DNA of 64,000 nt from Modestobacter sp. VKM Ac-2982 (GTDB lineage: Bacteria; Actinomycetota; Actinomycetes; Mycobacteriales; Geodermatophilaceae), in NCBI RefSeq assembly GCF_026967935.1, contig NZ_JAPVBL010000002.1, forward strand, positions 1 to 64,000. Reading direction: 5' to 3'. This document shows, piece after piece, positions 29 through 20,228 of this stretch. The notes beneath the pieces are model-generated. The model was given only the letters and a program-made list of their open reading frames with translations. It did no database searches and was not told where the DNA came from. The number at the start of each line of letters is the position of its first letter. The stretch's first letter is position 1. A program made the position numbers and the translations under genes.

Positions 29-51
29 GCTGGTGTGTCCGGCGCTCGTCG

Positions 52-828: not shown

Positions 829-886
829 ACACCGATCTCTCGTCCATTGAGAAGCGGCTGGGTCGGCGCGTGACCTGTGTCGCACG

Positions 887-906: not shown

Positions 907-915
907 GAGGTCGGT

Positions 916-1896
916 GTGCTCGGAGTGCAGCAACGGCGGGCTGGGGGCACGGGCGTGGACCGCGCGGTGGTCCGGGTGGAGGAGAAGACCCCGGTCGCCG
1001 ACGGCGTGGTCACCCTCACCCTGGCCGCGCCGGACGGCGGGCGGCTCCCGGACTGGACGCCGGGCGCGCACGTCGACCTGACCCTGGACAACGGCCTGAC
1101 CCGCCAGTACTCGCTGTGCGGGGATCGGTGGGACGCGCGCTCCTACCGGGTGGGCGTGCTGCTCGAGCCGGCCGGCCGGGGCGGGTCCGCCTACGTGCAC
1201 GAGCAGCTCGAACCCGGGCACGTGGTCGGCCTCGGCGGGCCGCGGAACAACTTCCCCCTGGTGCCCGCGGACTCCTACCTGTTCGTGGCCGGGGGCATCG
1301 GCATCACCCCGATCCTGCCGATGGTCGTGCAGGCCGAGCTGCTGGGTGCGGACTGGCGGCTGCTCTACGGCGGCCGGCAACGCAGCTCGATGGCCTTCCT
1401 CGACGAGCTCGCGGCCCACGGCGGCCGGGTCCAGGTGCGCCCGCAGGAGGAGCACGGCCTGCTGGACCTGCCCGGCTTCCTGGGCGAGCCCCGGGCCGGG
1501 ACGAGGGTGTACGGCTGTGGCCCCGCGCCCCTGCTCGGCGCGATCGAGAGAGCCTGCGCGGGCTGGCCGCCGCACACCCTGCACACCGAGCGGTTCGTCG
1601 CCGCCGAGCGGGGTGCACCCGTGCGGACGACGCCCTTCGAGGTCGAGCTGCACCGCTCCGGGCGGACCGTCGTCGTCGCACCGGGGACCTCGGTGCTGGA
1701 CGCGATCGCCGGCGCCGGGGTCGAGGTCCTCTCCTCCTGCCGGCAGGGCACCTGCGGCACCTGCGAGACCACCGTGCTCGCCGGGCAGCCCGACCACCGG
1801 GACGCACTGCTGGACGACGAGGAGCGGGCCGCGGCCGACTGCATGTACCCGTGCGTCTCTCGCTCCTGCAGCGACCGCCTCGTCCTCGACCTGTGA
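916..1896 (+). CDS. PDR-type three-domain oxidoreductase (FMN/NAD/[2Fe-2S]), P450 redox partner
   Basis: A 326-residue reductase of the phthalate dioxygenase reductase/VanB type. It has an N-terminal flavin domain (RQYSL, residues about 60-65), a nucleotide-binding domain (AGGIGITPILPM, and YGCGPAPLL) and a C-terminal plant-type ferredoxin. The iron-sulfur ligands are Cys275, Cys280, Cys283 and Cys313. Such proteins pass electrons from NAD(P)H via flavin and [2Fe-2S] to an oxygenase. The next gene, 31 bases downstream, is a P450, so this is most likely its single-protein electron donor. The GTG at 916 has GGAGG five bases upstream; an in-frame GTG at 877 would add 13 residues but has no such site. 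Cytoplasmic; no transport signal. Confidence 0.9.
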   Translation: MLGVQQRRAGGTGVDRAVVRVEEKTPVADGVVTLTLAAPDGGRLPDWTPGAHVDLTLDNGLTRQYSLCGDRWDARSYRVGVLLEPAGRGGSAYVHEQLEPGHVVGLGGPRNNFPLVPADSYLFVAGGIGITPILPMVVQAELLGADWRLLYGGRQRSSMAFLDELAAHGGRVQVRPQEEHGLLDLPGFLGEPRAGTRVYGCGPAPLLGAIERACAGWPPHTLHTERFVAAERGAPVRTTPFEVELHRSGRTVVVAPGTSVLDAIAGAGVEVLSSCRQGTCGTCETTVLAGQPDHRDALLDDEERAAADCMYPCVSRSCSDRLVLDL

Positions 1897-1927
1897 CCAC
1901 CGACCCCGCCCCGACGAGGAGCTCCGC

Positions 1928-3139
1928 ATGACCCGCACCGCGAGCCCGACGGCCGGCCTGCCGGTCAGCGACGCCGACCCCTTCAGTCACGAGGTCCTCG
2001 AGGACCCGCTGCCGCTGCACGAGCAGTTGCGCGAGGCCGGGCCGGTGACCTGGCTGAGCCGCTACGACGTCCACGCGCTCGCCCGGTACGAGGAGGTGCA
2101 CGCCGCGCTGGTCGACTGGCAGCAGTTCCAGTCCGCGGCCGGGGTGGGCCTGAGCAACTTCCGCACGGAGGAGCCGTGGCGGCCGCCGAGCCTGCTGCTC
2201 GAGGCCGACCCGCCCCGGCACGACGCACCGCGGCGGGTGCTGACGGCGGTGCTCGGTCCGCGGGCCCTCCGCCAGCTGCGGGAGCGCTGGGCGGCCGACG
2301 CCGAGGAGCTGGTCGACCAGGTGCTCGCCGAGGGCACCGAGTTCGACGCCGTGCCGGCGCTGTCCCAGGCCTTCCCGCTGCGGGTGTTCCCCGACGCGGT
2401 GGGCCTCGGCCCGGACGGCCGGGAGAACCTGCTGCCCTACGGCGACCACGCGTTCAACGCCTTCGGGCCGCCCAACGACCTGGTGGCCAGGGGCGCGCCG
2501 CGGGTGGCGGAGCTGTCGGCCTGGGTGGGGGAGCAGTGCCGGCGGGAGTCGCTGGCCGAGGGCGGCTTCGGTGCGGCGATCTGGGCCGCCGCCGACCGCG
2601 GTGATCTCACCCCGCAGCAGGCGCCGCTGGTCGTCCGGTCGCTGCTGACCGCCGGCGTGGACACCACGGTGCACGGCATCTCCGCCGTCCTGTACGCCTT
2701 CGCCACGAACCCGGCCCAGTGGGCGCGGCTGCGCGCCGACCCCGGGCTGGCCCGGGTCGCCTTCGACGAGGCGATCCGGTGGGAGTCGCCGGTGCAGACC
2801 TTCTTCCGGACGACGACCACCGCCGTGCGGATCGGGGAAACGGTCGTCCCGGAGGGCCACAAGGTCCTGATGTTCCTCGCGGCGGCGAACCGGGACCCGC
2901 GGCGCTGGACCGCCCCCGACGCCTTCGACCTCGGACGCGACCCCTCGGGCCACGTCGGCTTCGGGATGGGGCTGCACCAGTGCGTCGGGCAGCACGTCGC
3001 CAGGCTGGAGGCGGAGTCGGTGCTCACCGCGCTGGCCCGGCGGGTCGCCAGGATCGAGCTGGCCGGCCCGACGCGGCGCCACCACAACAACACCCTGCGC
3101 GCATGGGACAGCCTGCCGATGTCGGTGGAGCTGGCCTAG
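1928..3139 (+). CDS. cytochrome P450, CYP199 family, predicted para-methoxybenzoate O-demethylase
   Basis: A 403-residue P450. The heme thiolate is Cys352 in FGMGLHQCVG, and the I-helix oxygen-activation motif is AGVDTT (242-247). Many blocks match CYP199A2/A4 of Rhodopseudomonas as I remember them: PWRPPSLLLEADPP, FNAFGPPND, VRSLLTAG, ESPVQTFFRTTT and HHNNTLR. The residues corresponding to those that bind the substrate carboxylate in CYP199A4 (Arg92, Ser95, Arg243, Ser244) are present as Arg85, Ser88, Arg237 and Ser238, and the active-site phenylalanines in FNAF are also kept. This supports oxidation of para-substituted benzoates such as 4-methoxybenzoate, releasing formaldehyde and 4-hydroxybenzoate. 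ATG 1928 follows GAGGAG. The exact substrate range is inference. Confidence 0.9.
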   Translation: MTRTASPTAGLPVSDADPFSHEVLEDPLPLHEQLREAGPVTWLSRYDVHALARYEEVHAALVDWQQFQSAAGVGLSNFRTEEPWRPPSLLLEADPPRHDAPRRVLTAVLGPRALRQLRERWAADAEELVDQVLAEGTEFDAVPALSQAFPLRVFPDAVGLGPDGRENLLPYGDHAFNAFGPPNDLVARGAPRVAELSAWVGEQCRRESLAEGGFGAAIWAAADRGDLTPQQAPLVVRSLLTAGVDTTVHGISAVLYAFATNPAQWARLRADPGLARVAFDEAIRWESPVQTFFRTTTTAVRIGETVVPEGHKVLMFLAAANRDPRRWTAPDAFDLGRDPSGHVGFGMGLHQCVGQHVARLEAESVLTALARRVARIELAGPTRRHHNNTLRAWDSLPMSVELA

Positions 3140-3141
3140 CC

Positions 3142-3185: not shown

Positions 3186-3266
3186 CCACGACCTTCCCCC
3201 CGGGTGAGTTGCCGACTGCGGTGGGTGACTGGCTCGGTGAATCCCGGTGTCACGGGGCCGAGCCGA

Positions 3267-3296
3267 TTGACAGCGATGGGTGACGTCCCGACGATC
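3267..3296 (+). promoter_or_regulatory. possible promoter of the SARP-type gene
   Basis: A perfect TTGACA -35 (3267-3272) is followed after 17-18 bases by only a weak -10 (around 3290-3296, GACGATC). It lies about 70 bases upstream of the GTG at 3363. The good -35 with a poor -10 would suit a promoter that needs an activator. Confidence 0.3.
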
Positions 3297-3362
3297 GCAG
3301 TCCTGCGGCACCCCAGCGCACGTTCCTCTCCCACCTCCGAGGGGTGCCGAGGAGAGTGACTC

Positions 3363-4103
3363 GTGGACGCCTCCCCGACCACGCACGTGGCCCTGCTCGA
3401 CGGGTTCGCCCTGCACCGGGACGGGTCGGGGCCCGACACCGCCCTGGGTGAGCTCCCGCACGGCGTCCAGCGGGTGGTGGCCCGGCTCGGCATGGTCGGC
3501 CGGCTGGCACGGACCGCCGCCGCCGGCCAGCTGTGGCCCGACGTCCCGGAGGAGCATGCGCTGGGGAGCCTGCGCTCGGCGCTCTGGCGCCTGCACAAGG
3601 TCGCCCCCGGCCTGGTGGTCGCGTCCGGGGGAGTCCTCAGCCTGGCGGCCGGCGTCCGCGTCGACGTCCGGGAGCTGACCGAGTGGGCGCAGGGCGTGCT
3701 CGGCCGGCAGGCCCCCGTGGACGGCGTCGCCGCCGTGCCGGACGTCGGGCTCCGCGGCGAGCTGCTCCCCGGCTGGTACGACGACTGGGTCCTGCTGGAG
3801 CGCGAGCGGCTGCGCCAGCTGCGGATCCACGCCCTGGAGGCGCTGGCCGACCGGCTGATCACCGCGGGCCGCTTCGGCGAGGCGTCCCAGGCTGCTTACG
3901 CCGCGGCCCAGGCCGAGCCGTTGCGGGAGAGCGCGCACCGCGCCGTCGTCCGGGTGCACCTGGCCGAGGGCAACGTGGTGGAGGCGGTGCGCGCCTACGA
4001 CTCGTTCCGGGTGTTGCTCGCCGCCGAGCTCGGCGTCGCCCCCACCCCGCAGATGGACCAGCTGGTCGGCGCCCTCCGGCGGGTGCGGACACCTGCGGTC
4101 TGA
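3363..4103 (+). CDS. SARP/BTAD-type transcriptional regulator
   Basis: A 246-residue protein resembling the Streptomyces antibiotic regulatory proteins without their ATPase extension. Residues about 5-95 look like the winged-helix DNA-binding part (LWPDVPEEHALGSLRSALWR), and residues about 100-240 form the helical BTAD domain (WVLLERERLRQLRIHALEALA, then TPR-like helices). GTG 3363 follows GAGGAG. It lies 135 bases before the peroxidase gene, on the same strand, at the head of the oxidative cluster. SARPs typically activate the cluster they sit in, so it is a candidate pathway-specific activator; this is inferred from position. Confidence 0.85.
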   Translation: MDASPTTHVALLDGFALHRDGSGPDTALGELPHGVQRVVARLGMVGRLARTAAAGQLWPDVPEEHALGSLRSALWRLHKVAPGLVVASGGVLSLAAGVRVDVRELTEWAQGVLGRQAPVDGVAAVPDVGLRGELLPGWYDDWVLLERERLRQLRIHALEALADRLITAGRFGEASQAAYAAAQAEPLRESAHRAVVRVHLAEGNVVEAVRAYDSFRVLLAAELGVAPTPQMDQLVGALRRVRTPAV

Positions 4104-4115
4104 GGGCCCGTCGGA

Positions 4116-4143
4116 ACGCCCCTCCTGGTGCAGACGGGGGCGT
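4116..4143 (+). terminator. weak hairpin after the SARP gene
   Basis: ACGCCCC (4116-4122) can pair with GGGGCGT (4137-4143) across a 14-base loop. There is no T-run. It may be a weak terminator separating the regulator from the peroxidase gene. Confidence 0.3.
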
Positions 4144-4238
4144 GACGCGGTGCTCACGCCGCGGTGACGGGAGCGTGGCGGTCCCGGCCGATGCTGTGCC
4201 ACGGACACCCGTCTGCCAGCCACCGGAGGGGGCACGTC

Positions 4239-5807
4239 ATGGCCCGTGACGCCGACGACGTCGAACGACCCGACACGATCTTCCCGTCGATCACCACGCC
4301 CACGGAGCCGAAGCACCACGCCCGCCCCCTGCGGGGTGTGGACGTGCTGCCCTCGTCGTCCCACGCGAGCGGGCCGTTCGGGCGGATGTTCCGGCACCTG
4401 CCGGTGTTCGAGCACCAGCCGCAGGCGCTCGCCGCGCTCGCGGCCCGGATGAACCCCGGCGGGCGTCCGGTGGAGAACCCGGGCATCCCGTCCGGCTACA
4501 CCTACCTGGGCCAGTTCATCGACCACGACATCACCTTCGACCCGGTCTCCAGCCTGCAGCGGCAGAACGACCCCGATGCGCTGCACAACTTCCGGACACC
4601 CCGCTTCGACCTGGACTCGCTCTACGGCCGCGGCCCGGCCGACCAGCCCTACCTGTACGACGACTCCGGCGGGCTCATGCGGTTCAGGCTCGGGGAGGAC
4701 GTCGGGGTGGTGCCCGACGAGCCGAGCGGCGCCGGACCCGACCTGCCGCGCAACGAGCCGCGCCGGCGGGGTGAGGAGGAGGTCTTCTTCGGCCGCGCGC
4801 TGATCGGCGACCCGCGCAACGACGAGAACACGCTGGTCTCCCAGCTGCACTGCACGATGCTGCGGTTCCACAACCAGGTGGCCGAGCTGGTGGTGGCGAC
4901 GACGCCGTTGACCGGTGACAACGCGTTCAAGGAGACCCAGCGGCTGGTGCGCTGGCACTACCAGTGGGTGGTGGTGCACGACTTCCTGACGCGCATCGTG
5001 GGCCGGGCGGTGGTCGACGACGTGCTGCGCCCGGAGACCCTCGTCGTCGGCACCCGGGGGGAGCAGGTGACCCTGCCCCGGCCGCACTTCCAGTTCTACG
5101 CACCGCAGCAGACCGCGTACGTCCCGGTCGAGTTCTCGGTCGCGGCCTACCGGTTCGGGCACTCGATGATCCGCGGCCGGTACGACATCAACCAGTTCGT
5201 CAAGGGCGCACGCGGTGACCAGGGACCGATCCCGGTCTTCGGGCCGGAGCTGCCACCGGACGAGCTGTCCAACCTCAACGGCTTCCGCCGTCTCCCGCCC
5301 CAGTGGGCGGTGGAGTGGGACCTGCTGTTCGACATGCCGGGATCGCAGGTCGAGGCGCAGCCGAGCCTGGCGATCGACACGTCGCTGGCCGGGCCGCTCG
5401 CCTCGCTGCCCGCATCGGTCGCCGCGGACCCGCCGCACTCGCTGGCCGAGCGGAACCTGCAGCGAGGCCTGCGCCTCGGGCTGCCGGCCGGCACCACGGT
5501 CGCCCGCGCGATGGGCATCACCCCGCTCACCGCGAAGGAGCTGGGCCTGGACGACCTGGACGGCGAGCTGGCGATGCACCCGCCGCTGTGGTTCTACGTG
5601 CTCAAGGAGGCCGAGCTGCTGGAGGGCGGCCGGGCGCTCGGGCCGGTGGGCGGGCGGATCGTCGCCGAGGTGCTCCTCGGGCTGCTGGCGCACGACCCGC
5701 TGTCCTACCTGAGCGTCGAACCGGCCTGGCGCCCGCAGCCGCCCCTGGCCCGGGACGACGGCTCGTTCGACATGCCGCAGCTCCTCCGTCTCGCCCAGCA
5801 GCCCTGA
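4239..5807 (+). CDS. animal-type heme peroxidase
   Basis: A 522-residue member of the peroxidase-cyclooxygenase superfamily. Gln92, Asp95 and His96 lie in GQFIDHD, matching the distal Gln-Asp-His of mammalian peroxidases; RNDEN matches the distal Arg/Glu segment; His308 in RFGHSMIRGRYDIN is the proximal heme ligand. Such enzymes use hydrogen peroxide to oxidise halides, phenols or lipids. ATG 4239 follows GGAGGGGG and begins MARDADD; no signal peptide is seen, so it is predicted cytoplasmic or exported unconventionally. It opens a run of three same-strand genes with the unknown 752-residue protein and a flavoprotein. The substrate cannot be read from the sequence. Confidence 0.93.
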   Translation: MARDADDVERPDTIFPSITTPTEPKHHARPLRGVDVLPSSSHASGPFGRMFRHLPVFEHQPQALAALAARMNPGGRPVENPGIPSGYTYLGQFIDHDITFDPVSSLQRQNDPDALHNFRTPRFDLDSLYGRGPADQPYLYDDSGGLMRFRLGEDVGVVPDEPSGAGPDLPRNEPRRRGEEEVFFGRALIGDPRNDENTLVSQLHCTMLRFHNQVAELVVATTPLTGDNAFKETQRLVRWHYQWVVVHDFLTRIVGRAVVDDVLRPETLVVGTRGEQVTLPRPHFQFYAPQQTAYVPVEFSVAAYRFGHSMIRGRYDINQFVKGARGDQGPIPVFGPELPPDELSNLNGFRRLPPQWAVEWDLLFDMPGSQVEAQPSLAIDTSLAGPLASLPASVAADPPHSLAERNLQRGLRLGLPAGTTVARAMGITPLTAKELGLDDLDGELAMHPPLWFYVLKEAELLEGGRALGPVGGRIVAEVLLGLLAHDPLSYLSVEPAWRPQPPLARDDGSFDMPQLLRLAQQP

Positions 5808-5819
5808 GCCGGAGCCACC

Positions 5820-8078
5820 GTGGCTCTGCTGGACGACGTCCGGGCCCTCTGCGACCGGCTGGCCCCGCACGGCTGGGCGGACCTGCTGGTCGCTCACGGC
5901 CTGGACATCGGCGCCGCGGACCTGGCCGCCGAGCTGGCCCGCCCGCTGCCCGGGGTCGACCGGGAGGTGCCCGGCTTCGAGGACTTCGCGGCGGAGGGGC
6001 GGCGCGGGGTGGAGCCCCGGTCGCCGGCGCGCAGCCTGCTCCTGCACGCGCTGGCCTCGCCGAACGTGACCCGGCGTCCGGACGGCCGGGAACTGACGGG
6101 GTTCGCGACGCCGGCCGAGCTGTCCGTGGTGGAGGACCACGTCTTCGGCGTGCGCCCACCGTCGCTGGCCGAGCTCCTCGTGGCGGCGGGCACGGGGAAC
6201 CTGGCGATCGTCGTGTTCGCCACCGAGTACCGCCCGTCCGCGCAGACACCGCACCAGCGGCACGCCGACCTGGTGTTCGCGCGCACCGGGGTCTCCCGGG
6301 TCGGTACGGCCCCGCCGCGCTGGGACGGCCGGCTGCGCGGCTTCCTGCCCACCGTGGCGGACGACCCGCACGGGGTGCGGGTGCTGCCCGCCCGATACGC
6401 CCCCTACCTGGCCGTCCTGGTCCCCGGGGACCAGGCAGGCGCCGTGCCGATGCGGTTCCGGCCGGCGGACGGGTCGGGTCCCGGGGACGCGGGCCGACGG
6501 TTCTGGGTACCGCTGCACAAGCTGTTCCCGGGTGCCGAGTGCATCCGCGGGCGGACGCTGTCGGTCCGGCTGACGGTCACGCACACCAACGAGAAGCTCC
6601 GCCGGATCCACCTGGCCCTGGGGCCGGACGCCTCGTGGGGGCGCCCTGACGTCGACCGCCCGCCCTTCCGGTTCTCCGACGGCATCGCCGAGCTGTCCGA
6701 GGACCCCGGGCTCGGGCCCGGCACGGTCGTACCGGTGCCGCACGCGCGGCTGGTCGAGCCGGCCGAGTACCAGGGCCGGCCGCTGACCTTCCGGGTGCCG
6801 CCGAACCAGCCGCTGTCCTCCAGCCTCAACATCCCGGCCGAGGGGTTGTGGCGGCACGGGCCGGAGTACGTGCACGTGCGCTCCGCGGTCGCCGACGACG
6901 GGACCGAGACCGACCTCAACACCCGCCCCGACGTGGCCGGCGTGGTGGCCGCCGGGGGCTATCGGGCCCGCCACCACGTGGACTTCACCGGGGACGGCTG
7001 GGTCGCCGCCGTCGTCCCGGAGCTCGCGCCCGAGCTGCCGCGCAGCCGCAGCGCCTACTCGTTGGTGGCCGCGCCGGACTTCTTCCCCAGCACCGACCAG
7101 CGGGAGCTGACCGAGTGGGCCGCGACCCGCGTGCCGAGCCGGCTGCGGACGACGATCTGGCGGGTCCCACCCGATCCGCTGTCCGACGAGCGGTTCCCGG
7201 CCAACCTGACCCTGTCCGGCAGCGGTTTCCGCCCCGACGACGACACCGTGACCGCGATCGTGTGCCGGCCCCAGTCCCCGCCGGGGGAGCGGACCCGGCT
7301 GGAGACGTCCCACACCGAGCGCCACTCCCACCTGCCCGACGACGCCGCCGGCGTCTTCGCCCCCGGCTGGGACGTCAGCGTCGACGGCCGGGTCGGTGGC
7401 CCGGTGCACCTGGCCGCCTACGGTCTGGGCAGCCCGTTCCCCGAGGACTCGAAGCTGTGCGCCGCGCTGAGCGCCTTCTGGCCGGCGGTGGCCCCGGACG
7501 CCGCGCGCACCTTCCAGCCGATGCCGGACTGGCCGACCGTGGCACCGCTGACCGACGAGGAGATCGGGGTCGTCGGAGACCTGCCGTGGGACGGCGTGCC
7601 CGGTCCGCGCCCGGCCCGGGTCGACGGCGCCGACGTCGTGGACTACCCGAGCCTGGACCACGCCGACTACGTGGCCACCTCGCTGCGCGGCGCCATGACC
7701 CTGGCCCTGACCGGCGCCGTCCGGGAGGACGAGTACCGGTCCCGGGTGCTGGCCATGGCCCGCGCCTACGAAGCGCTGGGGGTCGACACCACCCAGGACT
7801 TTCGCACCGTCGTCCGGGAGAAGGCCCGGTGGTCGGTGCTGTCGTTCCGGGCCCTGGACCCGGCCGACGCCGAGGCGGTGTCGGCCGGGACGGCGGCCGG
7901 CGTGCGGCTCACCGGGCCGCTGTACCGGGTGGTGGTCTTCCTCCGCGGCGCGGTGCGCCCGCATCCCACCGCGGTCGACCGGGTGCACGTCGAGGTCCGC
8001 CGCCGGGTCGACCTGCTCGTCGACCCGGTGGTCGTGCTGACCCGGGAGGAGCCGGGCGGGTGGGCGAGCAGCGGCTGA
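5820..8078 (+). CDS. uncharacterised 752-residue protein of the oxidative cluster
   Basis: I do not recognise this family with certainty. The protein is soluble-looking, without signal peptide or membrane segments, and rich in His, Trp and charged residues. Blocks that look conserved are HTNEKLRRIHLAL, APGWDVSVDG, and PEDSKLC (Asp543, Cys547) followed closely by AFWPAVAPDAARTF (Trp554). The next gene encodes a LodB-like flavoprotein, whose family matures the Cys-Trp quinone cofactor of LodA-type oxidases; the D-x3-C spacing recalls LodA, but the LodA signature IARVGNS is absent, so that link is speculative. GTG 5820 follows CGGAGCC, 12 bases after the peroxidase stop, indicating one operon. 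Confidence 0.75.
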   Translation: MALLDDVRALCDRLAPHGWADLLVAHGLDIGAADLAAELARPLPGVDREVPGFEDFAAEGRRGVEPRSPARSLLLHALASPNVTRRPDGRELTGFATPAELSVVEDHVFGVRPPSLAELLVAAGTGNLAIVVFATEYRPSAQTPHQRHADLVFARTGVSRVGTAPPRWDGRLRGFLPTVADDPHGVRVLPARYAPYLAVLVPGDQAGAVPMRFRPADGSGPGDAGRRFWVPLHKLFPGAECIRGRTLSVRLTVTHTNEKLRRIHLALGPDASWGRPDVDRPPFRFSDGIAELSEDPGLGPGTVVPVPHARLVEPAEYQGRPLTFRVPPNQPLSSSLNIPAEGLWRHGPEYVHVRSAVADDGTETDLNTRPDVAGVVAAGGYRARHHVDFTGDGWVAAVVPELAPELPRSRSAYSLVAAPDFFPSTDQRELTEWAATRVPSRLRTTIWRVPPDPLSDERFPANLTLSGSGFRPDDDTVTAIVCRPQSPPGERTRLETSHTERHSHLPDDAAGVFAPGWDVSVDGRVGGPVHLAAYGLGSPFPEDSKLCAALSAFWPAVAPDAARTFQPMPDWPTVAPLTDEEIGVVGDLPWDGVPGPRPARVDGADVVDYPSLDHADYVATSLRGAMTLALTGAVREDEYRSRVLAMARAYEALGVDTTQDFRTVVREKARWSVLSFRALDPADAEAVSAGTAAGVRLTGPLYRVVVFLRGAVRPHPTAVDRVHVEVRRRVDLLVDPVVVLTREEPGGWASSG

Positions 8079-9199
8079 CCGGCGGGCCCGTCGACCTGGT
8101 GGTCGTGGGCGCGGGGCCGGCCGGGACCGCGGCCGCCGTCACGGCGGCGGTCGCCGGGCTGTCGGTGGTCCTGGTCGAGGCCTCGGCGGTCACCCGGGAG
8201 CGGCCAGGGGAGACCCTGCACCCGGGCGCCGAGGGGGTGCTGCGGCAGCTCGGGATCACCCGGGAGGTCGCGGCCAGCGGGTGGCTGCGGCACCCCGGGC
8301 ACTGGGTCGCCTGGGGCGGACCGGCGCGTTTCGTGCCGTTCGGCGGGCCACCGGGAGCGCCCTGGACCGGGTACCAGGCGCCACGGCGGGAGCTGGCGGA
8401 GCTGCTGCTCGGGCGAGCGGCCGCGGTCGGGGTCACCGTGCACCGGGACTGCCGGGCCCTCCGGCCGACGGTGTCCCCGGCCGGGCGGGTCGACGGGGTG
8501 CACACCAGCCGGGGCTGGTTCCCCGCCGCCTGGGTGGTCGACGCCAGCGGTGGGCGGCACTGGTCGGCCCGTGCGCTCAGCCTCCCCGTCCACCGGGTCA
8601 GCCGGCCGCTGGTCGCGTCGTGGGGCCACCTCGCGGGCAGCTGGCCGGAGCGGGCCGTGCCCCACCTGCGGGCTGACCGGGCGGGCTGGACCTGGACCGC
8701 ACCGGTGCGTCCGGACGTGCACGCCTGGGTCCGCCTGGACGTGCGCCAAGGCGCAGGCCTGCCGGGTCCGCCGCCGCACCCGGGTCACCTGCAGCCGGTC
8801 ACCGGGCCGCACGCGGCCACGGTGACCTGGCGCCGCGCCACCGTCCCGGCGGTCCGGGGGCTGCTCGTCGCCGGTGACGCCGCGGGGCTGCTCGACCCGT
8901 GCTCCGGCTCGGGGGTGCTGCGGGCGCTGGTCACCGGGGCCGTGGCCGGTCGGGCGGTCGCGGACACGCTGCGAGGGCTGCTGCCGGAGGAGGCGGTGCT
9001 CGACGGGTACCGGCGCTGGCTCGCGGACTGGTTCGGCGCCGACGTGGCCCGGCTCGACCAGCGCTACGCCCTCTTCCCGGACTGGTCCCCGGCCCACCGG
9101 GCGGACTCCGACCCACTGCCTGACCGCGACCGGCCCGCCGTCAGGCCACGCACGGCAGCCGCACCGGGCGGTGCCCGGCGGGGTCCACCAGCGCGGTGA
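8060..9199 (+). CDS. FAD-dependent oxidoreductase, LodB/tryptophan-halogenase-like
   Basis: A 379-residue flavoprotein. VVVGAGPAGTAAA (residues about 13-25) is the dinucleotide-binding loop, GETLHPGAEGVLRQLG matches the GE(S/T)L region of LodB and halogenase-like enzymes, and LLVAGDAAGLLDPCSGSG is the second FAD motif. The lysine-rich tryptophan-halogenase motif (GGSGKS with WxWxIP) is not apparent, so chlorination is not supported. The GTG at 8060 overlaps the previous gene by 19 bases and has GGAGGA upstream, implying translational coupling. Its 3' end overlaps the convergent gene at 9141 by 59 bases. The likely role is oxidation or cofactor maturation of a partner in the cluster, by inference. 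Confidence 0.85.
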   Translation: MGEQRLTGGPVDLVVVGAGPAGTAAAVTAAVAGLSVVLVEASAVTRERPGETLHPGAEGVLRQLGITREVAASGWLRHPGHWVAWGGPARFVPFGGPPGAPWTGYQAPRRELAELLLGRAAAVGVTVHRDCRALRPTVSPAGRVDGVHTSRGWFPAAWVVDASGGRHWSARALSLPVHRVSRPLVASWGHLAGSWPERAVPHLRADRAGWTWTAPVRPDVHAWVRLDVRQGAGLPGPPPHPGHLQPVTGPHAATVTWRRATVPAVRGLLVAGDAAGLLDPCSGSGVLRALVTGAVAGRAVADTLRGLLPEEAVLDGYRRWLADWFGADVARLDQRYALFPDWSPAHRADSDPLPDRDRPAVRPRTAAAPGGARRGPPAR

Positions 9200-10139
9200 G
9201 CCGGACCCCGACCCGGTCGGCCAGCTGGGCGCCGAAGCGGATCGGCCGACCGTCGAGCGTGATGTCCCCGACCGCGTAGCCGCGCTCCGGGGGGACGGCG
9301 TAGCCGGCCCGCAGGGCGTGCTCGGCGTCGCCGCGCTCGATCGTCCAGAACGTGGCCGGGTCCTCCCCGTCGGGGGTGCGCATGCCGGCGGTGAGCAGGC
9401 CGTCGAGGTAGAGGCCCATCGGGTCCAGCAGCGACACCTCGGCACCGGTGGCCGCGGCGTCGTTGGTCGCCGCGGCGATCTGGGGGTCGCTGTTGCGCAG
9501 CGGCTCGCCGAGACCCCCGCACCGGACGAGGGCCTGGGCGGTGGTGACCGGCTCGCCGGCGGCGTCGTGCCGCAGCACGGTGGCCTCCGCGGCGAGCACG
9601 ATCGCCGCGCCCAGGGTGTTGTTCCGCTGGACCAGGTGGACCAGCCGGCCTTCGGTGGAGCGGTTGTGCACGTTCTCCCGGACGTACCGGCCGCCCACGA
9701 TCAGCTCGTCCGGCTGGACGTGCGGGCCGACGAGCTCCCGGTACAGCGCGAGGAGGCGGTCGGGGTCCTGCGCGGCCAGGTGCTCGTAGTACTCCGGCAC
9801 CTCGGTGGTGAAGGTGACCCGGGTGACGGTGCCCGCGCCGTCGCGCTCGACGCTCCACTCGCAGTACTCGTCCTGGCGGTGCCGGCTGGCGTCGGCGGTC
9901 CGCCAGCGCTGCTCCTGCGAGGTCGCGGACTGGAGCAGGGTGGCGGGGAACGCGTTCCACACGATCGGCGGTGCCACGGCATCGGCCGACACGTCGGTGG
10001 CCGTGGGGTCGAAGAACTGCGTGAACCGGGCCGCCAGCGGGGCCACGAGCCCCGCGACGCGCGCGCTCCACGCGTCCCGGCCCGCGTCGTCCGGCTCCGG
10101 CAGCCGCGCCGGGGTGTCGAACCTGTCCAGCACCGGCAC
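9141..10139 (-). CDS. uncharacterised 332-residue protein
   Basis: I do not recognise this protein. It has no signal peptide or membrane helices. Visible conserved-looking parts are PPIVWNAFPATLL, RQDEYCEWSVER followed by FTTEVPEYYEHLA, and the C-terminal RFGAQLADRVGVRLTALVDPAGH. The aromatic and acidic EYCEWSV/EVPEYY pair suggests a metal- or substrate-binding cleft, but no motif can be assigned. It starts (GTG) 3 bases after the stop of the upstream 527-residue gene and is the last gene of a four-gene leftward operon. Co-location with oxidases suggests it belongs to the same process. Confidence 0.75.
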   Translation of the reverse strand: MPVLDRFDTPARLPEPDDAGRDAWSARVAGLVAPLAARFTQFFDPTATDVSADAVAPPIVWNAFPATLLQSATSQEQRWRTADASRHRQDEYCEWSVERDGAGTVTRVTFTTEVPEYYEHLAAQDPDRLLALYRELVGPHVQPDELIVGGRYVRENVHNRSTEGRLVHLVQRNNTLGAAIVLAAEATVLRHDAAGEPVTTAQALVRCGGLGEPLRNSDPQIAAATNDAAATGAEVSLLDPMGLYLDGLLTAGMRTPDGEDPATFWTIERGDAEHALRAGYAVPPERGYAVGDITLDGRPIRFGAQLADRVGVRLTALVDPAGHRPVRLPCVA

Positions 10140-10142
10140 CGC

Positions 10143-11726
10143 TCAGCCCTCCACGATCGTGGCGTCGGCCCGCATCGTCCGGTCCCCGGGTGGGACGTCC
10201 GTGCGGGCGAACAGCAGGGGGGTCTCGGAGATCGGCATCGTGCGCACCCGGGCCCGTCGCGATTCCGCCAGCCGGACGACGTCGTCGTAGCCGTCCTGGG
10301 TCGCCAGCCGCGCCGTCACCGCTCCGTAGTAGTCCTGCAGCTCGGCGTCGAAGGACGCCTGGAAGTCCTCGCCGAGCGCCCACCGGGCCGCGAACTCCCG
10401 CTCCGGGCTGCCGGCCGGCGTGCCCTCCGCGGCTGCGGCCACCGCGTCGCCCATCTCCTGGGAGAAGCTGCTCGCCCCCTCGGTCACCACCGCACGCGCC
10501 GGCACGTGCGCCAGCAGGGCCTCCCGGCGGGCGGAGAACACGGGGTTGGGGAAGTCGGTCATGAGCAGGCAGGCGGCCAGCCGGCGGGTCAGCAGACCGG
10601 TGCGGAGGGCCTCCTCCAGCACGGCGCGGTCCTCGAAGGCCCGCTCCGGGACGGCGAAGGCGAAGTGCGTGTCGCCGGCGCGCTCGAAGCCCCGCCCGTC
10701 GGTCAGCCGCACCCGGAAGGAGGCCAGGTTGGCCGTGTAGAGGTCGCCGGAGACGGTGAACGGCGGCGGTTCCTGCAGTCCGAGCACCTCCGTCAGGCCC
10801 TCGGAGTCGACGAAGAACGTCTGCGGCAGGTCGACGACGCCGCCGGCGGCGGCCCGGCTCTCGGTCTGACTGCTGATGAGGTTGACACTCGGCGTGCCGA
10901 GCACCTGCACCATGACCCGGGCCGGGTCCTCGACGACGCCGCCGTCGGCCAGCAGCTGCTGGAACCGGGTCCTGGTCCACCGCAGGATGCCGGGCTTGGC
11001 GACCGCCACCTCACAGGTGAGCGCGCCCCGGGGGTCCCGGCCGGTGACCCAGGGGTGGTCGGCGAGCGGTGGGTCGCGGGGCAGCACCGAGGGGAGGACG
11101 TTGGCCGCCTGCGAGTGCCAGTGCAGCCACGGGAAGCGCAGCTCCTTCATGACGAAGTTGCCGCTGAGGTGGCTCTCGAACGGGCCCTTCCCCTGGGTCG
11201 GTGCGCGCAGCGCGTGCCGGGAGTTGCCCGCGAACACCCAGGCCGACGTCGCGCCCACCGTCTGGAAGTAGTTGAAGCCGCCGGTCCGCTGGTCCCAGGC
11301 CATCAGCTCGACGTCGCCCTCATCCGGGTGGAAGGCGCTGATCAGGACCTCCGCCCCGTCGGGCCCGGCCCCGCGGGTGGCCAGGAAGCGCAGCCGGCGG
11401 TCGACCGAGGCGGTGGCCGCGCTCATCGGGATCTGGCTGCCCTCACCGACCAGGAAGAAGAACCCCTGCCGCAGCGGGTCGTCCGCCGGGGTGGCCCGGT
11501 CGAGCTCGTCGAGCACCTCGCCGGCCGTCCGCGGGAACACGCCGCGCAGCAACAGCAGCGTGGCGAAGGGGTCCGCGAGCTCGGCCGCGGCCTCCTCGCC
11601 GGTCAGCACCCGCACGGCGTCGTCCTCGCCGACGACGAAGCGGTGCACGGCGCCGGGCCGCAGGGCCTCGGACGGCAGCCGCCGGAAGGCGGCGCAGCTG
11701 GTGTCGGTGGGAGCCGGGGAGCCCAT
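10143..11726 (-). CDS. uncharacterised 527-residue protein with a WLHWHS motif
   Basis: I do not recognise the family. The central region GGFNYFQTVG...WVFAGNSRHAL...GKGPFESHLSGN...FPWLHWHSQ (residues about 149-205) is rich in aromatic residues and histidines (His171, His186, His202, His204) and could bind a metal. The C-terminal part contains helices including FSQEMGDAVAAA and ELQDYYGAVTARLA. No signal peptide. The ATG at 11726 has GGAG about nine bases upstream. The gene is followed at once by the 332-residue gene, so the two are probably co-translated partners. Confidence 0.75.
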   Translation of the reverse strand: MGSPAPTDTSCAAFRRLPSEALRPGAVHRFVVGEDDAVRVLTGEEAAAELADPFATLLLLRGVFPRTAGEVLDELDRATPADDPLRQGFFFLVGEGSQIPMSAATASVDRRLRFLATRGAGPDGAEVLISAFHPDEGDVELMAWDQRTGGFNYFQTVGATSAWVFAGNSRHALRAPTQGKGPFESHLSGNFVMKELRFPWLHWHSQAANVLPSVLPRDPPLADHPWVTGRDPRGALTCEVAVAKPGILRWTRTRFQQLLADGGVVEDPARVMVQVLGTPSVNLISSQTESRAAAGGVVDLPQTFFVDSEGLTEVLGLQEPPPFTVSGDLYTANLASFRVRLTDGRGFERAGDTHFAFAVPERAFEDRAVLEEALRTGLLTRRLAACLLMTDFPNPVFSARREALLAHVPARAVVTEGASSFSQEMGDAVAAAAEGTPAGSPEREFAARWALGEDFQASFDAELQDYYGAVTARLATQDGYDDVVRLAESRRARVRTMPISETPLLFARTDVPPGDRTMRADATIVEG

Positions 11727-11767
11727 GGCGATCGCTCCAGGTGGCCGACGTGGCGGCCGGCCGGTGG

Positions 11768-12262
11768 TCAGAAGAGCGGGACCCGGAGGACCTGCCCCGG
11801 GAAGATGAGGTCCGGGTCCATCAGGCTGTCCCGGTTGGCCTCGAAGACGTCGCCGACGGTGGTGCCCTGCCCCTGGTCCCGGGCGATCGCCGAGAGGGTG
11901 TCGCCGGGCACGACCTCGTGCAGCCGCCAGCCCTGCATGCCGGTGAAGAGCGTCACCCGGACCTGGTTCAGGTCGGTGCCCGGCGGGTTCTCGCCGGACG
12001 CGTCGTCGCCGAACACCTGGAGGAGCGCGTGCTCGCCGCGGGCCTGCACCCCGCCTGGCAGCGCGACCTCGAGGGCGAAGTCGTCGACCACCCCCATGGA
12101 GCCGACCCCGGGGACCAGCCCCTCGCCCAGCGGCGCCCCGCCGGCGCCGAGCAGCCGCCAGGTGACGGTGGCCTCGAAGCCGGAGCCGAAGCCGGCCAGG
12201 GCGAACCTGGCGGCCACGAGGTCGTGCTCCCGGGGCTGCCGCACCTCGATCAGACGGGCCAC
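11768..12262 (-). CDS. Gmad2 immunoglobulin-like plus LysM domain protein
   Basis: A 164-residue protein with two domains. Residues about 1-105 look like the Gmad2 immunoglobulin-like fold of spore-germination proteins (VARFALAGFGSGFEATVTWRL...VRVTLFTG), and residues about 113-163 are a LysM repeat (VVPGDTLSAIA ... NPGQVLRVP-type ending FPGQVLRVPLF). LysM domains bind N-acetylglucosamine polymers such as peptidoglycan. There is no signal peptide, which is odd for a wall binder. GTG 12262 has a strong AAGGAGG. It lies in the leftward operon between the lipase-like gene and the 527-residue gene. Confidence 0.85.
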   Translation of the reverse strand: MARLIEVRQPREHDLVAARFALAGFGSGFEATVTWRLLGAGGAPLGEGLVPGVGSMGVVDDFALEVALPGGVQARGEHALLQVFGDDASGENPPGTDLNQVRVTLFTGMQGWRLHEVVPGDTLSAIARDQGQGTTVGDVFEANRDSLMDPDLIFPGQVLRVPLF

Positions 12263-12326
12263 CGTCCACCTCCTTGTCGTCAGGACCAGGCTCCGGTCGC
12301 GACGTCACCGGGTCGTCACCCGGCCG

Positions 12327-13835
12327 TCATCCCGCGGGTCGCACGGTGAGCACCACGGCCGCCCGGGGGCCGAGGAACGCGCCACCCGCGGGCAGCGGCA
12401 CCTCGGCCCGCCACGAGCCGGCGGCCGGGTCGAGGTCGGTCAGCGGTTCCCCGGCCGCCTCGTAAGCCCGCAGCGGGACCTCGATCCGGGAGCCCCACTC
12501 GGCCCAGGCGGCCAGGCCGCCACCGGGCCGTTGCCCCACGTCGACGACGAGGTGGTCCTCGAAGTCCAGGCTGCCCTCGGTGTGGTCGGTCCAGGAGAAG
12601 ACCCGGTGGTCCTCGCGCAGGGACAGCAGCCGCAGCGAGATGGTGTAGCGCATGCGCGCGACGGGGCGGGCGGCCCCGCTCCACAGGTAGGTGGTGATCA
12701 GCGGCACCGGGCGGTCCGCGGGGTCCTCAGGTGCGGGCTGCTCGATGAGGATCGGGCAGTGGTGTGCGGCCTTCTGCGCGTGCAGCAGGACCGGGAGGCC
12801 ACGCACCGAGACCCAGGCCTCGGCCTGCCAGGTCAGCTCCTCGTCGCAGGGCAGTCGCAGGCCCAGCAGGTCGGCGGTCACGCGCACGTCCCCGAACAGG
12901 AAGCGCACCAGGTTCTGGTAGCCCTCCTCGGAGTTCACCAGGCCGAACCGGCCGCTGTGGCTCCGGTGCACGTGGGCGGAGTTGGCCCCGGTCACCAGCG
13001 CGTTCTCCACCTGGACGAGGCCGTCGCTCTTCACGCCGACGACCCGGGCGGACAGCCCGTGGGCTGCGGCGTAGTCGGTGGCGTTGGTGCCGATCAGGCA
13101 GAAGATCCGTTCGGCCGGGAAGTTGTCCTCGTCCGGGTTGGTCCGCGGGTTCCAGTCGTCGGGCACCCGCGCCTGCCGCCGGGCGGTGGGGGTGAGGTAC
13201 TCGTACATCCGCTCCCGGCCGAAGACGTCCCCGCCGCCGATGCCGAACTCGTCCCGCAGCGCCTCGAGCAGCCCGAACCCCACCTCGAACTCGATCCCGC
13301 CGTGCGGGGTGCCGTAGGTGAACAGCCGGTCCACCAGGTCCCGGGCCCGGACGCCGTCCCGACGGTCGGGCACCACCCGCTGGATCATCGAGCGGCAGAT
13401 CAGCCCGCCCATCGAGTGCGCGACCAGGTGCACGCGGGGCGCCCCGGTCTTCGCCCGGACCTGCTCCACCAGGTCGAGCAGGTCCTCGGCCGCCTCCTCG
13501 ATGGAGAACGGCTGCGGGCGGGGTGCGCGCCACGTCGTGGCGGAGCGGTCGTAGAAGCGGTGGATCCACAGGGTGGCCGGCTCCAGGGACCCGTCCGGCT
13601 GGCACGCCAGGAACGTCTCCTGGCCGCCATCGACGTGCAGCCGGTAGCCCCGCTCGCCGAGCAGCCGCAGCAACGGGCCCTCGAACTGGTAGAAGACCGG
13701 GTCACCCTCGCCGCCGACCCGGACGTGGGTGGAGCCGAGGTTGAAGCCGTAGAGCGGGTCGTCGACCGCCTTGTCGATGCCGGACGTGTCGCCGGCGAAG
13801 CCACGGACGTAGACGATCGGCAGCGTTCCGGGCAC
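12327..13835 (-). CDS. alpha/beta-hydrolase, PGAP1/lipase-like
   Basis: A 502-residue protein. The N-terminal 330 residues form an alpha/beta-hydrolase: LPIVYVRGFAGDTSG oxyanion region, HLVAHSMGGLICRSM nucleophile elbow (Ser in HSMGG), then FTYGTPHGG and a late HVHRSHSG histidine segment. The order resembles PGAP1-like and triacylglycerol lipase families. The C-terminal ~170 residues look beta-rich (RYTISLRLLSL, SLDFEDHLVVDVG) and may be a C2- or Ig-like module. GTG 13835 is chosen because GGGAGG lies upstream and the hydrolase fold begins directly. First gene of the leftward operon, divergent from the GMC oxidoreductase. The substrate, ester or amide, is unknown. Confidence 0.85.
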   Translation of the reverse strand: MPGTLPIVYVRGFAGDTSGIDKAVDDPLYGFNLGSTHVRVGGEGDPVFYQFEGPLLRLLGERGYRLHVDGGQETFLACQPDGSLEPATLWIHRFYDRSATTWRAPRPQPFSIEEAAEDLLDLVEQVRAKTGAPRVHLVAHSMGGLICRSMIQRVVPDRRDGVRARDLVDRLFTYGTPHGGIEFEVGFGLLEALRDEFGIGGGDVFGRERMYEYLTPTARRQARVPDDWNPRTNPDEDNFPAERIFCLIGTNATDYAAAHGLSARVVGVKSDGLVQVENALVTGANSAHVHRSHSGRFGLVNSEEGYQNLVRFLFGDVRVTADLLGLRLPCDEELTWQAEAWVSVRGLPVLLHAQKAAHHCPILIEQPAPEDPADRPVPLITTYLWSGAARPVARMRYTISLRLLSLREDHRVFSWTDHTEGSLDFEDHLVVDVGQRPGGGLAAWAEWGSRIEVPLRAYEAAGEPLTDLDPAAGSWRAEVPLPAGGAFLGPRAAVVLTVRPAG

Positions 13836-14037
13836 CGCGCACCTCCCGTCGACCGGGCTCCACGCCGAGCCGGTCGGGCACCGTGACGCGCACGCACACC
13901 GGCTGCCGCCCATGCTCGGTCCCGGCCGTCACCGATCCGTCACGGCCGCCGGAGGGCCCGGCGTGGCGTCCGGCGGGTCCCTCGCCGGCGCGTGCACGGG
14001 TCTGGCGCCGGCCCGGCCGGACGCGGACACTCCGGCC

Positions 14038-15735
14038 ATGCCGCTGCCACAGCTGCAACCGACGGGCGGGCAGGTCGCCGTCCAGGAGACCGCGTTCAGC
14101 ACCGACGCGCTCGGCCGTTTCGCGTGCAGCACCTGGGCCGAGGCGACCGGCAACGGGGGAGCGCCGTTCACCACCGTGGTCGTCGGCGGGGGTGCCTACG
14201 GCGCCCACCTCGCGGCCGCGCTGTACCGGGCCCGGCCCACCGCGCGGGTGCTGCTGCTCGACGCGGGCAGCCTGCTGGTGGCCGAGCACGTGCAGAACCT
14301 CGGCCGCCTCGGCCTGGACGTCCCGGCACCGGTCGAGGTCGACCCCGGCACGGCGCGCGACCTGGTGTGGGGCCTGCCGTGGCGGGGGAACGTGGCCTTC
14401 CCGGGGCAGGCCTACTGCCTCGGCGGCAAGTCGCTGTACTGGGGTGGGTGGTGCCCCCGGCTGCTGGACGGCGACCTGGCCCGTTGGCCGGCCGCGACGG
14501 CGGCGGACCTGCGCACGCGCTACACCCGGCTGGAGAGCGAGACCGGCGTCGTCCCGGGGACGGACTTCGTCTTCGGGGAGCTGCACGACGCGCTCTCCCC
14601 GGCGGTCGCCGCCGGCGTGGCCGCGGTCGACGGGCTGACCGCGGTGGAGCCGGCGCCGCTGGCCGTCCAGGGGAGCTCACCGGTCTCCGGGCTGTTCGGC
14701 TTCGACAAGTTCAGCAGCCTGCCGTTGCTGATCGACATGGTCCGCCGGGACGTGCGCACCGCGGGCGGCTCGGACGCCGCGCGCCGGCTGTTCGTCGTCC
14801 CGCGGGCGCACGTCCTCGCGCTGCACGCCGGCGGCGGCCGGGTGCAGACCGTCGAGGTCGACGTGGCCGGGGACCGGCAGCTGCTCGGCCTCGGGGCGGA
14901 CTGCTCGGTGGTGCTGGCCGCCGGCGCGATCGAGAGCACCCGGCTGGCCCTGCACTCGTTCCCGACGCCGCTGATGGGGCGCAACCTCATGGCCCACCTG
15001 CGCAGCGACTTCGCCGTGCGGGTCCACCGGGACGCCCTCGGACCGGTGGGCGACCGGGTCCAGACCGCCGCCCTGCTGGTCCGCGGGCAGGCGCAGACCG
15101 GGGCGTTCCACCTGCAGCTGACCGCCTCGACCAGCCGCGGCGACTCCGACGACCTGCTCTTCAAGATGGTGCCCGACGTGGAGGAGCTCGAGGCGCACCT
15201 GGCCGACCCCGACCCGCAGTGGGTGCCGCTGACCCTGCGCGGCGTGGCGGAGATGACCGGCGACGCCGGGACGCCCGTGCCGCACCCGGAGCGCAGCTGG
15301 ATCGACCTCAGCCCGTTCGAGCACGACGAGTTCGGCGTCCCCCGCGCGTTCGTGCACCTGATGACCTCCGGCGCCGACCTGCAGACCTGGCGGGAGATGG
15401 ACGTGGCCGCGCTCGCGCTGGCCCAGCACCTCGCGGGCGGGCCCGGCCGCATCCAGTACCGGTACGACGGCGGCTGGCAGGACCAGCCCTTCCCGCTGGA
15501 GCGGCCTTTCCCGGAGTGGCACCGCGGGCTGGGCACGACCTACCACGAGTCCGGGACGCTGTGGATGGGCGAGGACGCCGCGACGTCGGTGACCGACCCA
15601 CTGGGCCGGTTCCACCACCTCGCCAACGCCTACAGCTGCGACCAGGCCGCCTTCCCGACCGTCGGCTCGGCCAACCCGGTGCTGACCGGGCTGACCCTCG
15701 CCGACCGGCTGGCCCACCAGCTGCCGGTCCCCTGA
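14038..15735 (+). CDS. GMC-type FAD oxidoreductase
   Basis: A 565-residue flavoenzyme. VVVGGGAYGAHLAAAL (residues about 44-59) binds the FAD ADP moiety; LGGKSLYWGGW matches the GMC signature near the isoalloxazine; LAAGAIESTRLAL is the second signature; TTYHESGTLWMG carries the catalytic His, and FPTVGSANPVLTGLTLADRLA is the C-terminal FAD contact. GMC enzymes oxidise alcohols or sugars and often yield hydrogen peroxide, which could feed the cluster's heme peroxidase (inference). ATG 14038 has no Shine-Dalgarno but a GACACT hexamer six bases upstream, suggesting a leaderless mRNA; an in-frame ATG at 13912 would add 42 low-complexity residues. Confidence 0.9.
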   Translation: MPLPQLQPTGGQVAVQETAFSTDALGRFACSTWAEATGNGGAPFTTVVVGGGAYGAHLAAALYRARPTARVLLLDAGSLLVAEHVQNLGRLGLDVPAPVEVDPGTARDLVWGLPWRGNVAFPGQAYCLGGKSLYWGGWCPRLLDGDLARWPAATAADLRTRYTRLESETGVVPGTDFVFGELHDALSPAVAAGVAAVDGLTAVEPAPLAVQGSSPVSGLFGFDKFSSLPLLIDMVRRDVRTAGGSDAARRLFVVPRAHVLALHAGGGRVQTVEVDVAGDRQLLGLGADCSVVLAAGAIESTRLALHSFPTPLMGRNLMAHLRSDFAVRVHRDALGPVGDRVQTAALLVRGQAQTGAFHLQLTASTSRGDSDDLLFKMVPDVEELEAHLADPDPQWVPLTLRGVAEMTGDAGTPVPHPERSWIDLSPFEHDEFGVPRAFVHLMTSGADLQTWREMDVAALALAQHLAGGPGRIQYRYDGGWQDQPFPLERPFPEWHRGLGTTYHESGTLWMGEDAATSVTDPLGRFHHLANAYSCDQAAFPTVGSANPVLTGLTLADRLAHQLPVP

Positions 15736-17109: not shown

Positions 17110-18294
17110 TCAGCCGCGGGCGCCCTGGTGCTCGGCGAAGGTGTCGGCGACCCAGTCGGCGATGTAGGTGCTGACGTGCGGGAGGTGGTCCAGGCCGATG
17201 TGCTCGGTGGCCCCCTCCGCGGCGGTGAAGACGCGCAGCTCCCGCTTGGGGGAGTTGACCGCCTGGTCGTAGGAGCGGTGCGCCATGGACACCGGGATCT
17301 GCCGGTCGTCGGCGCCGTGGGCGACGAGGAACGGCACGGTGATCTGCTCGACCACGCCGTCGAGGTTCACCGCGTCGGCGAAGTCGAGGAACGCATCGAG
17401 GTGAGCCTCGTCGCCGTCGTGCCCCCACACCCAGAGCACGTGCGACCAGTAGTGGGGGACCGGCCGCTCGCCCTCACGCTCCCGCCGGCGGCGCTGCACC
17501 GCACCCCAGTCGTGGTTGGCGCCCCAGGCGACGCAGAGCGCGAAGCGCTTCTCGAAGGCCGCGGCCCGCGGGGCGTAGTAGCCGCCCAGCGACCAGCCGA
17601 CGATCCCGATCCGGCTGGCGTCGACGTCGTTGCGCGTCTCCAGCCAGTCGATGCACGCACCGGCCCACACCTCGGCGTCGATCCGGGCGGTGAGCCCCTG
17701 CAGCCGCAGCGCCTCACCGGTGCCGGGCTGGTCGAGCATCAGGCAGGAGATGCCGCGGGCGGCCAGCTCCGCCCAGTGGTCGGAGGCGTACATGTGCTCC
17801 TTGGTGGAGTCCAGCCCGTTGACCAGGACGACGACCGGGGCCGGCCCGTCGTCGGTGGCGGGGGCGGCGCTGAAGTACGCCGGCAGCGTGGTGCCCTCGT
17901 ACGGGATCTCCACCCGGCTGACCCGCGGGCTGTGCAGCTCGAACGCCTTCTGCGCGATCTCGAGCATCCGCCGGTAGGTGGGCACCCGGTTCGGGTCGGC
18001 GTGGGAGAGCATCCGCTCGGCCTGGGCCAGGTAGTTGCTGGCCCGGAACCACAGCTGGCCGGCGGTGCGGGTGTGCCCGGCCTTCTCCGCCTCCTCGGCC
18101 TGGCCGGCGAGCTGGTCGGTGAGTGCCCGCCAGGCGCGCAGGAAGTCCGGGGTCCCGGCGTCCTCGCCGGCGTTCGCGGCGTCCTTGATCGGCCGGCAGG
18201 CCCGGTCGACCTCGTCGATCAGGCCGCCGGAGTTCAGCGTCGCGACGACGCCGAGGTTCCAGGTGTAGGGGCCGGTGGGGAAGTACTCGAACAC
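17110..18294 (-). CDS. alpha/beta-hydrolase, DHPON-hydrolase/FrsA-like C-C hydrolase
   Basis: A 394-residue hydrolase with a helical N-terminal cap (about 1-125) and an alpha/beta-hydrolase domain: PVVVLVNGLDSTKEH oxyanion strand, GIVGWSLGGYYAPRAA nucleophile elbow, HGADDRQIPVSMA acidic residue and TEHIGLDH final His. This layout resembles 2,6-dihydroxypseudooxynicotine hydrolase, which breaks a carbon-carbon bond. It is the last gene of a five-gene leftward operon containing an extradiol dioxygenase, so cleavage of the ring-fission product is a fitting role; this is inference from context. Confidence 0.87.
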   Translation of the reverse strand: MFEYFPTGPYTWNLGVVATLNSGGLIDEVDRACRPIKDAANAGEDAGTPDFLRAWRALTDQLAGQAEEAEKAGHTRTAGQLWFRASNYLAQAERMLSHADPNRVPTYRRMLEIAQKAFELHSPRVSRVEIPYEGTTLPAYFSAAPATDDGPAPVVVLVNGLDSTKEHMYASDHWAELAARGISCLMLDQPGTGEALRLQGLTARIDAEVWAGACIDWLETRNDVDASRIGIVGWSLGGYYAPRAAAFEKRFALCVAWGANHDWGAVQRRRREREGERPVPHYWSHVLWVWGHDGDEAHLDAFLDFADAVNLDGVVEQITVPFLVAHGADDRQIPVSMAHRSYDQAVNSPKRELRVFTAAEGATEHIGLDHLPHVSTYIADWVADTFAEHQGARG

Positions 18295-18310
18295 GGTGTC
18301 TCTCTTCCGG

Positions 18311-20214: not shown

Positions 20215-20228
20215 GATGGTCCTCCCGT

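Follow-up and report, generated by a model that had tools for sequence, protein, structure and literature searches.

A candidate family of cysteine tryptophylquinone-type quinoproteins paired with its own flavoprotein in an oxidative gene cluster of Modestobacter

The stretch of DNA analysed here, hereafter the window, comprises positions 1-64,000 of the forward strand of contig NZ_JAPVBL010000002.1 from Modestobacter sp. VKM Ac-2982 (GCF_026967935.1), and carries at 3363-15735 nine open reading frames (ORFs), a SARP-type regulator and eight further genes. Our analysis indicates, with a probability of about 0.7 for the mechanism as a whole, that the core of this cluster is a new family of cysteine tryptophylquinone (CTQ)-type quinoproteins, represented by a 752-residue protein (752; 5820-8078, + strand), with its own flavin-dependent maturase, a 379-residue flavoprotein (8060-9199, + strand). 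The computations support the homology of 752 to CTQ enzymes, the conservation of the cofactor triad, the pairing with a LodB-type flavoprotein, and the presence of two other cluster proteins, of 527 and 332 residues (527 and 332), at some LodA loci. How the cofactor forms, which class of substrate is oxidised, that O2 is used, that the peroxidase is coupled to it and what 527/332 do are what we infer beyond this. The flavoprotein would hydroxylate Trp554 of the nascent 752 protein, the ring of which would cross-link to Cys547 next to Asp543 to give a CTQ-like quinone; the mature protein may oxidise an amine or amino-acid group, and O2 would re-oxidise the reduced quinone, yielding H2O2 for the adjacent haem peroxidase. 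The 527/332 pair would be an optional partner module, common to some LodA-type loci, with a possible part in electron transfer, assembly or substrate delivery. The first-pass annotation of this region had proposed an oxidative system of unknown type, which holds, and had overlooked 752 as its LodA/GoxA-like partner; the LodB-likeness that it saw in the flavoprotein proved the decisive clue to the identity of 752.

Few enzymes are known to make a quinone out of their own side chains: LodA/GoxA, quinohaemoprotein amine dehydrogenase (QHNDH) and the tryptophan-tryptophylquinone dehydrogenases. A further family across phyla, composed mostly of hypothetical proteins, would widen the known reach of this chemistry. 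The proposed triad (D543, C547 and W554) lies in a CTQ-like motif, D-x3-C-x6-W-P-x3-P-D, at codons 543-560 of 752 (7446-7499, + strand). An alignment of 233 sequences, made up of the window, three loci and 229 of the 234 listed homologues, shows no variation at D543, W554, P559, D560, G157, R160 or G162 and one exception at C547 (kept in 232), so that 752 presents the Asp four residues before the Cys and the Trp at the CTQ positions, in register with the D, C and W of LodA. The invariant residues of seven LodA-family proteins include a G-x2-R-x-G close to the N-terminus, D-x3-D-G, P-G-x-E, P-x3-D-x3-C and W-x4-P. Direct profile comparison gave a weaker signal: hhalign of 752 against LodA gave a negative result for narrow profiles (P 0.29), later reached P 0.013, and with all 233 sequences P 0.0025 at a still weak probability of 12%. 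The realignment, of low confidence, places the 752 segments GVSRVG, DFTGDG, AYSLVAAPDFFP, FPEDSKLC and FWPAVAPD over GICRVG, DDWCDG, SWVACVGPNFAP, WQPDAFSC and WWPALLPV of LodA, respectively. In a block-shuffle control, the real score of an intermediate profile was attained by one of 200 shuffles. A chain test based on the invariant residues only recovered the same 752-LodA register unaided, matched by none of 300 label shuffles in each of six settings; applied to 527 and 332, it was matched by 192/300 and 194/300 shuffles, as for unrelated proteins. Likewise, in an unfiltered hidden Markov model (HMM) profile test over 1,594 frames and 1,594 reversed decoys, the nine top non-family matches of the 752 profile were all LodA-type (E 0.015-0.97), ahead of the first decoy (E 1.3). 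Between E 1e-5 and 10, the LodA profile retrieved ten rows, eight of them 752 proteins (two being duplicates), while a split LodA-type protein and an antisense frame made up the rest.

By the rule of the 2015 survey (PMC4417212), LodA/GoxA membership takes a BLASTP match to LodA or GoxA at E < 1e-10; 752 falls outside the group by this rule and by the Pfam LodA model alike. BLAST clustering at E 1e-8 and 55 bits keeps LodA and 752 proteins in components of their own, and none of 47 members of the 752 family matched Pfam LodA up to E 10 with the HMMER filters on. The best sub-threshold Pfam family was that of the QHNDH CTQ subunit, reached by 2 of these 47 members at E 0.02. Searches of PDB sequences with 752, its profile and its motif region returned nothing credible, and Foldseek alone gave no match at E 0.001 for 752 or 527. 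Similar chain size, colinear invariant residues, the cofactor region (Asp-x3-Cys and Trp-Pro-x3-Pro), an adjoining LodB-type flavoprotein and, in some loci, 527/332 neighbours all link 752 to LodA/GoxA, and a moderate fold match may point the same way; in contrast, 752 lacks BLAST- or Pfam-level similarity, has an N-terminal extension of about 125 residues ahead of the matched region, reads PFPED where seven aligned LodA members have PWxxD, shows a Cys-Trp spacing of 7, and is accompanied by flavoproteins with a clade of their own. Judged from sequence, 752 is thus not a LodA/GoxA member by the survey rule but most likely belongs to a homologous sister family that would work in a similar way. 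A 1,291-residue homologue of 752, P0302, contains a ferritin-like domain (PF12902), and annotations place ferritin-like genes next to LodA genes in L014 and in their vicinity in L019 and L040 (loci are denoted L and genomes G).

The second line of evidence is the flavoprotein. According to PMC4417212, LodA systems require a LodB-type flavoprotein for the cofactor, and QhpG is described in PMC7876137 as dihydroxylating the CTQ-precursor Trp. The window flavoprotein, FAD_binding_3/Trp_halogenase by Pfam, is best named by a reductase superfamily model, followed by QhpG (64.6 bits, the best equivalog name), CmlS, GoxB (52.1), MenJ and LodB (47.9), all NCBIfam scores being well below the cut-offs and those of QhpG, GoxB and LodB far below the equivalog ones. 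A flavoprotein gene adjoins the 752 gene in eight of nine loci compared (window, L001, L002, Burkholderia, Cupriavidus, G223, G421 and G446, in the last as two pieces about 1.1 kb apart), Acaryochloris being the locus where it is not beside it. The 752-linked flavoproteins share one BLAST component with those of LodA loci, and in a tree of 19 rows without outgroup the two sets separate with a support of 98/95. The pair would offer a maturase and its substrate with which to study tryptophylquinone formation by a flavin enzyme.

Two observations weigh against this assignment: the flavoprotein scores the halogenase CmlS (60.5 bits) above GoxB or LodB, and the spacing of 7 between C547 and W554 differs from that of LodA (516/581). 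They would suit a LodA-fold relative without CTQ, in which the flavoprotein modifies Trp in another way, for example by hydroxylating or halogenating it, or the Cys-Trp pair has a structural role. We consider this quite improbable, since the Asp and Trp are invariant and the Cys nearly so, the spacing is 6 in QhpC, three short LodA-type members read C-x3-WW, and the flavoproteins next to 752 and LodA genes are homologous. The flavoprotein resembles CmlS-type flavin-dependent halogenases at a comparable score, but its genomic partner is a protein with a CTQ-like motif rather than a recognisable small-molecule pathway.

The spacing nearest to that of 752 (D543-x3-C547-x6-W554) is found in QhpC, PMC7876137 giving Asp33, Cys37 and Trp43 (Asp33-x3-Cys37-x5-Trp43), an Asp conserved across all tryptophylquinone enzymes, and a mass difference of about 28 Da reported for QhpC. 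In 752 the motif lies within one long chain, unlike the small subunit of QHNDH. Of the QHNDH features compared (some of them described in PMC7876137), neither a separate small CTQ subunit, nor a radical SAM QhpD, nor a dihaem alpha subunit appeared in the Pfam and NCBIfam results of the nine proteins, which places the cluster outside QHNDH.

The main rival is modelled on QHNDH, with its electrons passing to haem: 752 would be a CTQ dehydrogenase, and its quinone electrons would go to 527, as a cytochrome-derived protein, instead of O2. The 527 gene (10143-11726, - strand) encodes an invariant H186 that aligns with the His of CMACH in an Acidobacteria homologue. That homologue is the only one of the eight members compared with a CxxCH haem site; the window protein has none, and by this feature does not belong to cytochrome P460 or cytochrome c. 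We regard the dehydrogenase as unlikely. A related and similarly doubtful proposal is a third tryptophylquinone architecture, in which 752 and its maturase would be complexed with 527/332, 527 would be an ex-cytochrome acceptor with a redox centre at H186, and the peroxidase would use any H2O2; it would be intermediate to LodA/GoxA, a single chain that uses O2, and QHNDH, in which the CTQ subunit is separate and haem is the electron sink. Its odds were lowered because 527/332 occurred alone in two more genomes.

Profiles of 527 and of 332 (9141-10139, - strand) retrieved nothing credible from PDB or Pfam, and these two families without a Pfam model also accompany some known LodA enzymes. In 5 of 25 plasmid records, 332 is no more than 8 kb from LodA. 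The 527 and 332 homologues are joined in one ORF in L043 and L047. We considered a close link between 527/332 and CTQ enzymes, which lost support from their occurrence alone in G450, G056, G083 and G111. In G056 (L027), G083 (L052) and G111 (L053), they stand with a second, more distant 332-like frame and without 752 or LodA nearby, and the 15 kb read in G083 and G111 contained no LodA, 752 or adjacent maturase, one weak flavoprotein frame (E 3e-6) apart; these loci are perhaps a separate system of their own. A 513-residue neighbour in Acaryochloris, considered as a 527 homologue, was rejected as not homologous. In rhizobia, 332 homologues were found near S8 peptidases and phospholipase-D-like proteins (L044 and L046), and in L044 the homologue and a phospholipase-D-like protein share one annotated gene. 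A 332-like frame in L028 crosses a masked stretch and goes on as an S8-peptidase-like part. Upstream of 527/332, we also observed split LodA-like systems in Bradyrhizobium barranii (L040:836-6258), Microvirga (L047:884-5714) and Azospirillum (L043:2132-4359). They combine a LodA N-half protein with a separate protein bearing SPWxxDFxxCGC(Y/F)YWAxxxPD (found in L040 and L047) and with a radical SAM protein, which is annotated as such in L040 and L043 and has a homologous ORF in L047, L040 adding a tryptophan-halogenase-like flavoprotein. They look intermediate between LodA and QHNDH.

The distribution of the cluster bears on whether it is a unit. The block from SARP to lipase (window 3201-13952) is conserved at 89% identity in the congener G009, with the flavoprotein intact. 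In G001, a single deletion of about 3.0 kb (window 5936-8978), with flanks 96-97% identical, eliminates 752 almost entirely, together with the greater part of the flavoprotein; given also that the 332 gene of this locus (L025) is split over two frames close to its own end, this cluster may be decaying. Among 112 genomes of the host family, 752 was matched in five (one being the G001 remnant) and 527 in five, with both in four, the remnant counted; G446 carries 752 without 527, G450 the reverse, and in G421 they lie 45 kb apart. In the phylum samples, 752 was found in 2/346 genomes and 527 in 5/396 (one a fragment), the window's genome and G223 carrying both. LodA_C was present in 1/149 genomes and absent from the window's genome. 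A genome-contig scan with one protein as query gave two loci only. The closest named homologue of 752 is from Modestobacter marinus (88% identity); others occur in Actinomycetota, Cyanobacteria, Acidobacteria, Burkholderiales and Bacillus, named hypothetical or uncharacterized in nearly all listed rows, with one Streptomyces member named for its Tat signal only. This scatter would fit horizontal spread. In the titles and abstract starts searched we found no description of the family, subscription journals and preprints lying outside this coverage, so a prior description is possible.

The pairs 752 with flavoprotein and 527 with 332 are each stable, and can occur separately. Chance adjacency of unrelated oxidative genes would account for this separability (G421, G446, G450, G056, G083 and G111) and for the lack of the GMC gene in G009. 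It is barely credible, and already largely refuted, because the entire SARP-lipase block is retained in G009, gene pairings are seen again in Acidobacteria and, within the phylum of the host, in G223, and 527 and 332 are twice fused in one ORF. That the cluster is more than chance is borne out by the G009 block and by gene pairs that turn up again in a different actinobacterial class or family and outside the phylum. The first-pass annotation would have taken it for chance adjacency had the genes occurred independently in relatives or the three unplaced proteins matched well-known unrelated families; they match none, and the genes are partly independent in relatives.

The accessory genes are more variable. 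The peroxidase (522 residues; 4239-5807, + strand), ending 12 bases upstream of 752, is an animal-type haem peroxidase (PF03098, 78.1 bits, cut-off 25) with QFIDHD and RFHN motifs found by pattern, which we take to be catalytic. Animal-type or DyP peroxidases also occur at L010, L028, L036, L040, L041 and L042, and weakly at L039; the same five queries found none at L001, L002, L011, L012, L027, L037, L038 and L043-L047. The pairing with 752 was seen in three of nine 752 loci compared (window, L028 and L010). The GMC-type oxidoreductase (13912-15735, + strand; GMC_oxred_C) had been proposed as peroxide supplier. It is present in G001, yet no homologue was found beside the otherwise complete G009 cluster, hence its peripheral status, or at the other 752 loci searched, some of them short, which weakens that proposal; GMC as essential peroxide source was dropped given its absence in G009. 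The Gmad2-LysM protein (164 residues; 11768-12262, - strand; both models above cut-off) is retained in G009, G001 and G421, and the lipase-like alpha/beta hydrolase (528 residues; 12327-13913, - strand; Abhydrolase_6) in G009 and G001, other hydrolases lying near the L028 and L010 clusters. The SARP/BTAD-type regulator (246 residues; 3363-4103, + strand; BTAD E 7e-18), with a weak AfsR profile match over residues 47-235 and no helix-turn-helix model matched, is conserved in G009 and G001, and BTAD-like proteins flank the 332/527/LysM/peroxidase cluster of G421.

SARP, haem peroxidase and hydrolase together, the latter two again at L028 and L010, could speak for a SARP-driven biosynthetic cluster, in which lipase, peroxidase and GMC would act one after another to yield a small molecule or lipid in oxidised, oxylipin-like form. 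This is very unlikely: the nine Pfam results hold no carrier, ligase, polyketide synthase or nonribosomal peptide synthetase, no SARP or GMC homologue accompanies the 752 and 527/332 cores elsewhere, and CTQ homology accounts for the 752-flavoprotein pair without a small molecule. H2O2-releasing amine oxidases can, according to published abstracts, act as antimicrobials, and they also serve in biosensing.

As to layout, the ORFs, including those of 752, 527 and 332 residues, were correctly placed at first pass, and the families matched (BTAD, An_peroxidase, FAD_binding_3/Trp_halogenase, LysM, Gmad2, Abhydrolase and GMC_oxred_C) all exceed Pfam cut-offs, in six of the nine proteins; 752, 527 and 332 have no Pfam match. 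The single run opened by SARP did not stand: SARP, peroxidase, 752 and flavoprotein, then GMC, are on the + strand, and the - strand group of lipase, LysM, 527 and 332 converges tail to tail on the SARP-to-flavoprotein group. The reported overlaps of 19 bases (752/flavoprotein, 8060-8078) and 59 bases (flavoprotein/332, tail to tail, 9141-9199) and gaps of 3 (332-527, 10140-10142) and 41 (527-LysM, 11727-11767) are real, though wider gaps of 64 (LysM-lipase) and 135 bases (SARP-peroxidase) exist as well. The N-termini, read without a signal-peptide predictor, show no hydrophobic stretch, PADLOC assigned none of the nine proteins to a defence family, and promoter and terminator scans gave nothing beyond chance. 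Upstream (window 1-3140), ORFs read by eye include an IclR-type regulator, a ferredoxin-reductase-like protein and a cytochrome P450, and downstream (17110-20600) a hydrolase and fumarylacetoacetate-hydrolase-like and extradiol-dioxygenase-like proteins, which suggests that aromatic catabolism genes surround the cluster.
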